From Smittium mucronatum (Eukaryota; Kickxellomycota; Harpellomycetes; Harpellales; Legeriomycetaceae): DNA of 16,426 bases. Positions 1-12,865 of this stretch are shown in pieces (the stretch's first letter is position 1; each line of letters begins with the position of its first letter). The stretch lies in assembly GCA_001953115.1 (NCBI GenBank), contig LSSL01002737.1:1-16426 (forward strand). The letters are read 5' to 3'. The notes under the pieces were generated by a model. It did no database searches. It saw only the letters and a list, made by a program, of their open reading frames with translations, and was not told the DNA's origin. A program made the translations under genes and the position numbers.

Positions 1-236
1 AATGAATCCCGGTTGGGGATAGTTGGAAAACTCCTTGGGGGGGAGTCTAAACATACTTTAAGTCAGCTCCAAGCTGACACCGCCGATCAAAAATTTGTGT
101 TGGAAACAGCCAAATTTCTGATTGGCATTCGCGTGCCACGAACACTTAAGCTCCAGAGTTTAAGTGATTCACCAGCCCCCTTGAACCAATGCCCTCGAGG
201 TATGGAGCTGCTAGAGCGGCAGAGGGGAGTTGGGTG
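1..236 (+). ncRNA. Structured RNA island 1 (3' part, cut by window edge)
   Basis: This stretch is close to half G+C and stops abruptly at very AT-rich DNA. It is an almost continuous run of clean hairpins: ATCCC/GGGAT (6-10/16-20), ACTCC/GGAGT (30-34/42-46), GTCAGCT/AGCTGAC (62-68/72-78, loop CCA), AAATTTGTGTT pairing with AACA then CAAATTT (91-101/105-117, GC bulge), TGGCA/TGCCA (123-127/134-138), CACTTAA/TTAAGTG (143-149/160-166) and GCTGC/GCGGC (207-211/216-220, loop TAGA). A possible closing stem joins CACC and CCCC (170-180) to GGGG and GGTG (224-236). It shares a conserved block and hairpin order with the island at 10864-11430. A T·G wobble at 209/218 becomes an A/C mismatch on the other strand, which favours plus-strand transcription. 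A frame is open from the edge to 237, but the hairpins and the lack of protein likeness argue against coding. The RNA class is unknown: I see no rRNA, tRNA, RNase P, SRP or snRNA signature. Confidence 0.55.
181..225 (+). other. Conserved RNA block, copy 1
   Basis: This 45-nt block aligns without gaps to 11326-11370 at 31 of 45 positions. It starts with TTGAACC, then 10 variable bases, then AGGTA. It ends in a 5-bp hairpin (207-211 with 216-220) with loop TAGA, followed by AGAGG. The hairpin differs from the second copy at a whole base pair (C-G here, G-C there) and at a wobble pair (U·G here, C-G there). That pattern is expected when structure, not sequence, is under selection. Confidence 0.65.
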
Positions 237-240
237 AAAA

Positions 241-246
241 TTTTTT
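241..246 (+). terminator. T6 run after island 1, possible RNA polymerase III terminator
   Basis: Six consecutive T on the plus strand lie 4 bases after the putative closing stem of island 1 ends. Placed directly after a structured RNA, this is a typical position for a Pol III stop. Short T runs are very common in this AT-rich DNA, so the assignment depends on the neighbouring RNA being real. Confidence 0.3.
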
Positions 247-286
247 GTAAAATTTTCGCTATTTATACTTTTTTTAATCTTTTTAA

Positions 287-328
287 ATTAGTTTTTATAA
301 CTTTTATTACTTTTAAAATAAATTTTCC
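287..328. repeat. Degenerate relative of the 48-bp right terminal inverted repeat
   Basis: The stretch holds TAGTTTTTA, TTAC and an AATAAATTTTCC-like end, in the same order as the right inverted repeat of the element at 10816-11478. The shared TAGTTTTTA lies 66 bases after the conserved RNA block here (G at 291 against 225) and 70 bases in the second copy (G at 11440 against 11370). The intervening T-rich DNA also shares TATAC and AAATT. The match needs gaps and is AT-rich, so it is only suggestive, but it would make island 1 the inside of a second element copy. Confidence 0.35.
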
Positions 329-375
329 TTAAAAAATAATAATAATAATTTATAACTTATACAATTAATATGAAA

Positions 376-9563: not shown

Positions 9564-10815
9564 CTACCTTAAAAATTTTAGTTTTATACATAAGTTAATG
9601 TGATTTGTTGGAATTTACAAGAAATTTCATCTAATTTTTATCCAATAAAGATTCAATTTCGAAAAATTAAAAAATACCCATTTTTCTTAGAAACGCTTAG
9701 CTTTTTCAGGATGTTATTTCTTTAATTTAGAGTTTTATGGGTTTAAAAACTAATATAAAAATCCTTAAAGTTTCCTGGCAAGAAAAATTAAGATATCACA
9801 AGCCAGACCAAGCTTTTTTTTTATTGACTTTATAGATGAATCTTTTTTAAACGAAATAATAGTTAAATATTGCGCAAATTTCAAAAAATGGGGTGATTTT
9901 GCGTCAATATATTTATAAAAACTATTACTTGCTGCTCCTAGAATTTCAGACTTTAAAAACTGGTTTAAATAAACCAATATTTTTATACAAAATTAAATAA
10001 GAATATCTTTGGATTGAGATATCTGGTAAGGTAAGGAATCTACTACGCAGTTAGCTATGAGGCTTTAATCATAAACTTGAATAATTTCCATTAAATTTTA
10101 ATATATTTTATATTTTCCCATGATTATAGACGCTCTTCATTTTAATAAAGGATTCACGAGATACTATTTTACTTTCATGAAGGTTCCATTTGTTTTTACT
10201 GCAATAATTACTATTTTACTTTTACAACTTCTTTTTTTTAACTATTTTTAGTGTATATAGTCAGTATTAAGTTATTAAAATTCGGCCAAATAAGGCTATC
10301 ACAAATTTCTTTCCTAATTAATAATATTTAGAGAGGTTTATAATCAAATTATATTATTTTTTATATTCTTATTATTGTTCACAGAAATCAATAAAAGTCG
10401 AAAGAGTAAGAAATTTGGATATTTTTCGGAACTAAAGAGTATAGTAGTAGGCTCTTATGCTCACTGCAATATATTTTTTGGTATCAGGTCATTTCATCCT
10501 ATTTTTAAATCCAATTTACATTTCATCTTGGTTCCCTTTGACCCGATTTCATTTGATCCAAAATCGATAAGCGAATAGTGTTGGGCTTTTTTGGTTTAAA
10601 ATTTGTAGATATTATTTTCCAAAGCCTACACTTAATCTGAATTCAACAATAATAAACTCAAATGCATCTTTTTTTTCTCCTCCAATTGTAAGTTATAAAA
10701 TTATGTAAAAAGTGTATTGGGCGAAATTTCAATTGGGTGAAATAGAATTGTTTTAAATGACGCGTAAATATATTTTTTCGCTTTTTTTAGTCTATGCCTA
10801 TTTTATTTTTTTTTG
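9564..10815. other. AT-rich gene-free stretch
   Basis: Two frames of about 70 codons exist (minus 9765-9977, plus 10375-10578). Both open with TTG only and encode no family I recognise, so I do not call them genes. A slightly richer patch near 10021-10075 holds nothing identifiable. Confidence 0.6.
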
Positions 10816-10863
10816 TATCGCGGAATTTTATTGTAAGATAAATTTATTAAAAACTATACTAAA
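10816..10863 (+). repeat. Left 48-bp terminal inverted repeat
   Basis: It starts TATCGCGGAATTTTATTG and ends CTATACTAAA. The reverse complement matches 11431-11478 with three substitutions. The T run to its left also faces the A run beyond the right repeat. Confidence 0.88.
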
Positions 10864-10904
10864 CCCCTAAGATTCTAATACCTTGCCTTGGTTTAGAAGT
10901 TTAA

Positions 10905-10928
10905 TAGTGTACTTTTCGAAGTACACTA
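10905..10928 (+). other. Perfect 10-bp hairpin with TTCG loop
   Basis: TAGTGTACTT (10905-10914) and AAGTACACTA (10919-10928) pair perfectly around TTCG. TTGGT upstream (10888-10892) and ACCAA downstream (10930-10934) could extend the stem past an asymmetric internal loop. UUCG is a stable RNA tetraloop on this strand, although the closing pair here is U-A, not the optimal C-G. It marks the 5' side of island 2. Confidence 0.75.
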
Positions 10929-11325
10929 GACCAAAATTTCACACAGCGCTGTACTATTCTTGATTGGGAATGGTGGAGACAGCCCACAGCGATTCGGAGG
11001 ACAGCGATTCCAGAGGAGGGCCATCTAGAAACAGGAGGAACCGATCGTTTAGCACAGCTGAGACATAGTCTAGTGCAAAAGTCCAGCGCTCGACAGTCAG
11101 ACTGATCTCAGCGTTTAACAGCTATTTGTAGGAAAGCCATGTCGATCAATCCCACGTTTGGGTAGGAGCCTAATTTTATTAATCCTGTTAGAAGTAGGCT
11201 CTGACTAGGAGCTCAATAGCTTCAATGAGCCGTTGTTCATTGACAAAGAGCTTAATCCATATCCGTTAAAGCCTCAGTCATGCAACTAATAGAAGCAATG
11301 CCAGGGGGGTCTTTCGGTTGGTAGA

Positions 11326-11370
11326 TTGAACCCTTTTCCCGTAGGTACACAGCCGGTAGTCCGGCAGAGG
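11326..11370 (+). other. Conserved RNA block, copy 2
   Basis: This is the counterpart of 181-225: TTGAACC, 10 variable bases, AGGTA, then a GCCGG/CCGGC hairpin with loop TAGT, then AGAGG. Spacing between all landmarks is identical in both copies, and the substitutions within the stem preserve pairing. It sits near the 3' end of its island, as copy 1 does. Confidence 0.65.
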
Positions 11371-11430
11371 AGCTTATTTTAATTAGGATAATAGTCTTTT
11401 CTATACGTCTTTTTCTTTTTTTCAAATTTT

Positions 11431-11478
11431 TTTAGTATAGTTTTTAATGAAGTTATCTTACAATAAAATTCCGTGATA
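11431..11478 (-). repeat. Right 48-bp terminal inverted repeat
   Basis: It starts TTTAGTATAGTTTTTAAT and ends AATTCCGTGATA. The three differences from the left repeat are at 11449, 11452 and 11474. The low divergence suggests either recent mobility or selection for pairing. Confidence 0.88.
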
Positions 11479-11759
11479 AAAAAAAAAATTGTTAAAAAAT
11501 AATGAAAAAAATACAATTTTTTTTATAAATATTCAAAAAAAATTAAAAAAATATTATAATAATTTTTTTTCTTAATGCAAATATGTGAATTCGTGATTTA
11601 AAAAATCATTATTTTATATCTGCACTTTTATTGATCGTCTAAAAGATATTCATCTTTCTTAAACATGCACTAAAATGATTTCATTGCCATTTAAATAGAT
11701 TTAAAATTATACTATATTAAATCTTGATTTTTGAAGCTTCAACATATTTTATATTAAAA
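11479..11759. other. AT-rich gap between the inverted-repeat element and the transposase relic
   Basis: The stretch begins with ten A that adjoin the right inverted repeat, and it has no further recognisable element end. A small TGATTT/AAATCA palindrome lies at 11594-11608. TATATT-like sequences before the relic's ATG are too common here to call a promoter. Confidence 0.5.
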
Positions 11760-12865
11760 ATGGAAAGATCTATTTTTGAGATTTATTTGGAGGAGAATGA
11801 GCTGTGTCAGAAAATTAAGAGTTTTTTGAGAGCGAAGTATTCAAAAAAGCTAAAATACTGTGCTAAAAAAGTTTACAGCTGTATAAATCCTAAAGATAAC
11901 GTATTTCTGTTCAAATTAAGAGTTAACAGATTTTATGATGGCAGAATTACTACTCATATGGGGAATTATCACTGCGATCCCTGCGTTAAAAATGAAATTA
12001 TTGGCCACAAAAAAAGAGATTTTGGAATTACACAAACTTGGTGTAAAGTCTAGAATGACTAAGAGAAAATTATAAAACGATGTTAATCCCATTGAAATTA
12101 ATTTAATATACTCTATTTTGAACTATTACAAAAGAAAAAAAATCAAAAAATGAGCCCAGCCACGACTGAATTTTTTGAAAAAATATGCATAAAGTTCTCG
12201 GGAAAAAAAAATCGCATCTTCCATATCTCGCGGGCTTTTCATCTGAAATAGAAAATTCGATGGTAATTGTGACTTCAAAAAACCGAATAATGATATTATC
12301 CAGAGCAATCAATTTACATGTGGATTCAACTTTTATCTAATTTATGTAAATTATACGGTTATAGTCTCAGAGATTACAGACGCAAATCGGAAATTCATAG
12401 CAATATAAATTTATATTTTGAGCAACGACAATAAAATTTCTTATTTAAGGTGTTTAATACCCTAAAAAAAGAATCGGAAAAAGAAACTTTCCACTTTAAA
12501 ATTTTAAATTTTAAAGTTCATTTAAGATTGAGCTAGGCAGATAAAAATGCCTCGGAAGAATTCGGAAAATTCGAATTGAAGACAGATTGTTGGTTTCATG
12601 AAGCCATAAAATTTAAAAAAATAATTGGAAAAAGAAAAAACTCAACAATTTTAGCCAAATTTTATATAATTATTTTTGGAGAATACAGCTGCCTCCAACG
12701 CCTGAAATTTTTGAAAAAAGAAAAAATCTTTTCATAATGAAATAGGGAGATCTTAGTGAACTGGCTGGAATAATATCTAAAATATCTGATGGAAATTTTA
12801 AAACCAGTTCAATCTGGTATGAGGGATATTCTATCTTTAGTACTTTCAACATAAAATGGGCTTAA
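11760..12865 (+). pseudogene. Decayed MULE (Mutator-like) transposase with FLYWCH-like N-terminus
   Basis: The intact protein would cut and paste DNA using a DDE (RNase H-fold) domain. From ATG 11760 a 97-codon frame runs to TAG 12051. Residues 49-75 resemble a FLYWCH-type finger (GRITT at 61-65, HCDPC at 71-75), but expected zinc ligands are missing (L53, Y59, D73). At a run of seven A (12009-12015) protein-like sequence moves to the +1 frame, continues as EILELHKLGVKSR, hits TAA 12073-12075 and stays open to 12153. The middle is spread over frames (12153-12251 and 12252-12408). From 12537 a frame includes DCWFHEAIKFKK. It shifts again at seven A (12615-12621), passes through RIQLPPTPEIFEKRK, is cut by TAG 12743-12745, and then reads SDGNFKTSSIWYEGYSIF. 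This matches the MULE motif D-G-T-F-K...Y-x-I around the first catalytic Asp (codon 12788-12790). TAA follows at 12863, and the second Asp and the Glu were not found. Two frameshifts plus stops make it inactive. Confidence 0.62.

Follow-up and report, generated by a model that had tools for sequence, protein, structure and literature searches.

Two islands of a Smittium mucronatum contig are very probably the 3' ends of a LINE and of a short retroposon with a LINE-derived tail

Why should two distant blocks of one fungal contig share a small hairpin, with base changes that preserve its pairing? The question arises in a 16,426-nucleotide stretch of DNA, hereafter the window, which is an entire contig (G000:C1503) of the 73.8-Mb assembly (2,957 contigs) of Smittium mucronatum, a gut fungus of insects. 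The original prediction was that the blocks, one in each of two islands, contain the same 5-bp stem and that substitutions preserving its pairing mark a functional RNA read from the plus strand. The description of the sequence was accurate. Positions 181-225 and 11326-11370 align without gaps and are identical at 31 of 45 positions. This is the top 45-mer alignment between island 1 and island 2, and none of 1,000 paired dinucleotide shuffles scored as high (the best reached 29). The stem-loops are, as claimed, GCTGC-TAGA-GCGGC in island 1 (207-220) and GCCGG-TAGT-CCGGC in island 2 (11352-11365). Between them, one pair has changed on both sides, from C-G to G-C (alignment columns 33/38), and another is U-G in the first and C-G in the second (columns 31/40). 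The same differences recur in further copies of both families. Hence, they are not noise of two single copies.

We conclude, with a probability of roughly 0.9, that the islands represent 3' ends from two families of retrotransposons, and that the tail of the second family, F2, comes from a LINE of the island 1 type. What we observe is many dispersed copies, variable LINE 5' truncation, a near-constant F2 5' end, target-site duplications, A-rich tails and homologous 3' ends. The two elements seem to be of a known kind: an enzyme-encoding LINE and a short retroposon that seems to borrow its enzymes. In both, the RNA corresponds to the plus strand, as originally predicted. Features of the window are listed in Table 1. 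Searching the S. mucronatum genome with island 1 gave 987 first-look candidates, 40 of which were scored to yield 42 matches; with island 2 there were 2,206, and 40 scored candidates yielded 40 matches. Note that 987 and 2,206 are candidates rather than verified copy numbers, and that the family labels used here, F1 to F4, were assigned from sequence and not from a tree.

Table 1. Positions of the LINE and F2 features in the window.
Feature	Positions	Strand	Remarks
End of LINE ORF2	1..237	+	78 codons fall in the window, ending with TGA at 235-237; frame runs on upstream in other copies
Block of island 1	181..225	+	last ORF2 codons LNQCPRGMELLERQR; proposed stem 207-211 / 216-220
LINE 3'UTR	238..345	+	AATAAA 317-322, A/TAA-rich tail; alignment of most copies ends at about 334-351
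F2 fragment, last 59 bp	10805..10863	-	inverted, directly against the 5' end of island 2
F2, complete copy	10864..11489	+	about 626 bp, 5' end CCCC, 3' end poly(A)
Decayed HDV-like ribozyme fold (predicted)	10864..10942	+	F2 5' terminus; P1 and P2 mutated in the window copy, well formed in other copies
F2 body	10943..11325	+	without a long open frame; matches neither Rfam nor the LINE 5' loci compared
LINE-derived F2 tail	11326..11489	+	18-codon ORF2 relic, stop 11380-11382, 3'UTR, AATAAA 11462-11467, poly(A)
Block of island 2	11326..11370	+	stem 11352-11356 / 11361-11365

Island 1 is the last ORF2 codons and the 3'UTR of an APE-type non-LTR retrotransposon (LINE). In other copies, the upstream frame contains a CxxC...HxxxxC motif and leads towards reverse transcriptase and endonuclease pieces. 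The ORF2 C-terminus has at least 150 matching places in the genome. Among the matches listed, an RVT_1 domain above cut-off lies about 0.8-1.1 kb upstream, on the same strand, in at least nine contigs (C2400, C2884, C1359, C1244, C92, C1636, C2020, C391, and C1166). APE and zf-RVT matches are weak and below cut-off. Such weak matches in single ORF2 pieces are those to PF03372, and also to RVT_1, at locus L072, where one piece had no domain match, and one to zf-RVT in a piece of L065. Points of 5' truncation vary (near -5 in L061, -262 in L065, -315 in L062, and at least -456 in L063). Despite this, the copies all end alike, in AATAAA followed by an A-rich tail. A target-site duplication was found in the one LINE copy checked, a short 3' insertion at L050 with flanks ATTCAGAGGTTTAATT. 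At the same locus (L050:2313-2546), Rfam identifies a tight row of three minus-strand tRNA genes, with that insertion on one side and an F2 copy on the other.

A 178-amino acid piece of the ORF2 C-terminal region matched 23 proteins, all from S. mucronatum or S. culicis; the candidates were proteins of 0.55 to 1.75 times the query length, which kept long LINE proteins out of the results. No intact ORF2 of the island 1 family was seen: among 150 matches listed, frames containing the C-terminus reach at most 287 amino acids, C822 excepted. In that contig (G000:C822:5486-5674), the match lies within a 1,892-amino acid open frame, possibly a host gene that has exonised the end of a LINE. Many C-terminus matches start near residue 38, which could have signified a fixed short derivative of the LINE. 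We rejected this idea since DNA matches of several such copies cover the entire query; frameshifts in a G run are probably responsible. A different LINE at L071 (G000:C2526) has a long open ORF2, of at least 1,167 amino acids, and an upstream frame in which a CCHC zinc-knuckle motif can be picked out by eye.

Island 2 is a complete copy of F2, a non-autonomous and non-coding retroposon. Copies of F2 start at, or a few bases from, one point (usually CCCCTAAG) and end with AATAAA and poly(A). Target-site duplications were assessed for 14 interior copies with both flanks, the ends being placed by eye. Allowing one mismatch, eight have duplications of at least 11 letters, while the maximum for 182 mismatched upstream and downstream pairs was 9. 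The remaining six, including the copy in the window, scored 4 to 6, as controls do. The longest open frames in 15 copies are 63 to 95 amino acids, with 11 of them on the minus strand and four on the plus, and we therefore rejected the possibility that F2 is a protein gene. We likewise rejected the head of F2 as the 5'UTR or ORF1 of a LINE: two F2 heads, compared by blastn and tblastx with L071, L072, and L093-L099, gave no match at E 0.01. A head recognisable as tRNA, 5S or 7SL RNA, typical of a classical SINE, was not found by Rfam in the window copy or in five others, and ARAGORN detected no tRNA anywhere in the window. As regards an internal Pol III promoter, inspection by eye showed that F2 contains T runs of at least four.

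Within the window, island 2 could be mistaken for a MITE, a DNA transposon, bounded by terminal inverted repeats of 59 bp, since the inverted repeat does exist (10805-10863 and 11431-11489). The left arm, as judged by blastn, is not found in other F2 copies, which begin a few bases from 10864. Furthermore, poly(A) is at a single end and duplications bracket the shorter unit in eight of the 14 copies. The other copies of F2 thus contradict a MITE, which we rejected as extremely unlikely. An inverted F2 end, lying against the complete copy, explains the apparent terminal repeat.

The two islands are related through the F2 tail. About 165 bp, from TTGAACC (11326) through the end of the element, are homologous to the LINE. 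Hence, the left edge of the block is simply where the LINE-derived tail starts. Read in the LINE frame, the F2 tail gives LNPFPVGTQPVVRQRSLL (L043) compared to LNQCPVGTEPLERQRGVG (L075), and the copy in the window has a stop codon at the place equivalent to the stop of island 1. The tail motif is nearer to that of LINE families F3 and F4 (PVGTEP) than to that of the island 1 family. Among the loci analysed, F2 copies resemble one another more closely than any LINE tail resembles F2. Common 3' ends are a mark of LINE/SINE-type pairs and, in addition to its LINE-derived tail, F2 has the target-site duplications of such elements. Mechanistically, the LINE reverse transcriptase may bind the common 3' end, perhaps via the small stem-loop, and F2 RNA would be copied by the LINE enzyme through target-primed reverse transcription.

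These results bear directly on the reading originally implied, in which the two islands are copies of a functional RNA gene in its own right, or of something akin to a riboswitch. In its favour are the compensatory change, which is real, and the Rfam searches. As originally stated, no known RNA family is recognised: neither the blocks nor F2 (the window copy and five further copies) gave a match reaching a gathering score, and matches in the entire window, and in smaller stretches of it, were weak and far below such scores. Conversely, target-site duplications, poly(A) and a LINE reading frame are properties of mobile elements, and the matches listed include at least 150 LINE ends and at least 40 F2 places. 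A match to a protein-coding family had been named in advance as evidence against an RNA, and the block of island 1 is the C-terminal coding end of LINE ORF2. Hence, for the islands as wholes, an independent RNA gene is refuted, and we give it next to no weight; both are mobile-element 3' ends.

This does not preclude selection on the 5-bp stem-loop itself, as a 3' recognition hairpin for the LINE protein kept in F2 by compensatory change. A hairpin of such kind is required by stringent LINEs, according to an excerpt of PMC4176376. We aligned 30 copies, picked by hand to span families, from 88 rows (112 matches minus duplicates and short or cut-off ones). The covariation score was 0.309 (mean after shuffling, 0.187), and 82.7% of 150 stem cells were paired, compared to 74.4% after shuffling; neither value was equalled in 500 shuffles. 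Sliding the stem positions lowered pairing to at most 54.7%. Note, however, that the shuffle control ignores relatedness. Moreover, two other measures were not raised: the number of doubly changed pairs was matched or exceeded in 251 of 500 shuffles, and that of further pair types in 124. While the double change at pair 33/38 is confirmed and accompanied by the wobble change at 31/40, the informative covariation is a single double change between two families, and so one event. In LINE family F3, pair 2 (30/41) is broken in six of seven copies and none keeps all five pairs. Across the 30 hand-picked copies, pair 2 is broken in 10. A small-looking covariation signal can, it appears, arise from the ends of mobile elements.

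Folding predictions were similarly divided. The stem is part of the predicted minimum-energy fold of island 2, and of predicted folds for L043 and L091, but is missing from those of island 1 and the F3 member L090. The folding energies of the two blocks (z of -1.45 and -0.89) are no better than those of shuffled sequences, and -1.45 was also the best z among seven pieces folded. RNAalifold retained three pairs, at -1.04 kcal/mol. In a covariance model, the check proposed originally, the stem contributed little, with 58 matches compared to 57 for a sequence-only model; the extra one (L011:326-380) is weak and in a LINE copy already found. Both counts refer to 46 sources, which are the window and fetched loci, some redundant or used in training, and bit scores of the two models are not directly comparable.

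The other explanation is that common descent, and the coding constraint on ORF2, account for the similarity by themselves, with the stem being incidental. Consistent with this, the LINE block encodes protein, and its GMELLER motif is retained in an S. culicis protein (P0143). In four of the six F3 copies affected, what breaks pair 30/41 is a synonymous substitution, CGA for CGG. Less easily accommodated is that F2, without a long open frame, multiplied with the block kept, and that its differences happen to preserve pairing. On balance, our analysis leans slightly towards an incidental stem; a selected hairpin is a reasonable second possibility that we hold tentatively.

The 5' terminus of F2 can be folded into the nested double pseudoknot, P1-P2-P3-P4, of HDV-like ribozymes. 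The predicted helices are P1 CCCCTAA/TTAGGGG, P2 GTGAAAT/ATTTCAC, P3 ACC/GGT and a P4 of 10 bp, beginning at the exact end of the element. The best-formed example of this predicted fold is L043:1501-1580. Among 28 rows, chosen as F2 5' ends, 95.0% of 726 helix cells are paired. In 19 of the 28, J4/2 reads GACUAAA or GACCAAA, which would put a C in place at the catalytic position. P1.1 has no obvious pairing, and the first base of the fold is C. Rfam models of HDV-like ribozymes do not recognise the F2 5' end. Within F2, covariation of the predicted helices did not exceed that in shuffles, which is what dead copies of a single family should show.

We wrote a perfect-helix descriptor of the fold after the sequence had been seen. 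Of 38 F2 5' matches, 16 fit it starting at their first base, 15 of these with the intended P4. Applied to both strands of 261,379 bases, with seven redundant loci omitted, the descriptor gave 50 matches, compared to 17 (best score 15) in one shuffle. F2 matches with the intended P4 scored 14 to 18. Elsewhere, scores of 16 (L094 and L098) and 17 (L094) occurred, so the descriptor score alone is not decisive. The match scoring 17 (L094:1312, minus strand) lies within a LINE copy, away from its end, has weak P1 pairs, and is probably due to chance. We also shuffled the first 110 nucleotides of the best F2 copy, which scores 18 while most others score 17. Of 60,000 shuffles, 108 had any match, six scored at least 17, and one at least 18. 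The main weight, however, comes from position: the match sits exactly on the first base of F2.

In R2 ribozymes, P1, P2 and P4 vary, whereas the catalytic C and four other positions are kept, and J1/4 is 0-2 nucleotides (excerpt of PMC3774820). J1/4 of F2, at 5 nucleotides, is longer. This and the score of 17 reached outside F2 weigh against the ribozyme. We still consider it somewhat probable, from the sequence, that the F2 5' end is an HDV-like self-cleaving ribozyme. The ribozyme would free F2 transcripts and restore the exact 5' end. At the LINE 5' end, in the one copy examined, the descriptor gave weak matches alone (10-11, one mismatch allowed); the start of the LINE in that copy is tentative, being set from two other copies whose alignment begins there. 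Hence, F2 may be an abundant fungal fusion of an HDV-like ribozyme, a body, and the ORF2 end and 3'UTR of a ribozyme-less LINE. The 5' end would be made by self-cleavage, and the 3' end by borrowed recognition overlapping donor coding sequence. We propose this composite picture with appreciable doubt.

Known systems, compared here through excerpts of the cited papers, resemble F2 in part. In stringent LINE/SINE pairs, such as UnaL2, ZfL2, and pairs in the CR1, Tad1, and RTE clades, common 3' tails contain a stem-loop bound by the LINE protein (PMC4176376). Similarly, F2 has a LINE 3' end and target-site duplications, and a small stem-loop can be drawn in its tail. Unlike in those pairs, the region common to F2 and the LINE starts within ORF2 codons, the F2 stem is weakly kept, and F2 has AATAAA and long T runs without a recognised tRNA, 5S or 7SL head. 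In Drosophila, R2/R1 hybrid SIDEs join a 5' ribozyme to the 3' end of another LINE (PMC3414825). F2, like R2 and these SIDEs, is predicted to have a 5' ribozyme ahead of a LINE 3' end, and is short and non-autonomous like the latter. However, the SIDEs are rDNA-specific and built from R2 and R1, whereas F2 is dispersed, fungal, and has a body of about 380 bp.

The trypanosomatid NARTc and SIDER elements have 5' Pr77 HDV-like ribozymes (PMC4035085). Again, F2 is a short retroposon with a predicted 5' HDV-like ribozyme and a LINE relative; its sequence and host differ, and the one LINE copy examined showed no ribozyme at what is putatively its 5' end. Among fungi, AfuSINE2 and other Aspergillus fumigatus SINEs are short retroposons with target-site duplications, as F2 is (PMC5063351). 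Those elements are related to tRNA or 5S RNA, while Rfam, and ARAGORN within the window, found no such head for F2. Excerpts from the literature on Smittium retrotransposons, and on HDV-like ribozymes of fungal non-LTR elements, contained no report of F2 or of the LINE. If the ribozyme and tail were confirmed, Smittium would harbour a fungal retroposon reduced to two RNA signals, one per end, and F2 would be useful for testing what the LINE enzyme needs of its template.

Other features of the window lie outside the islands. Just 3' of island 2, at 11724-12053, is a 109-amino acid open frame with cysteines (YHCDPC) and sub-threshold Pfam matches. Between 3173 and 8594, there are nested inverted repeats (3173-3237/8532-8594, 4483-4555/8390-8462, and 4623-4747/8266-8391), with more at 4937-5222/5942-6238, 6713-7025/7916-8228, and 3397-3494/4031-4126. 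The surrounding sequence is AT-rich, and the repeats have the look of nested insertions of foldback elements or DNA transposons.
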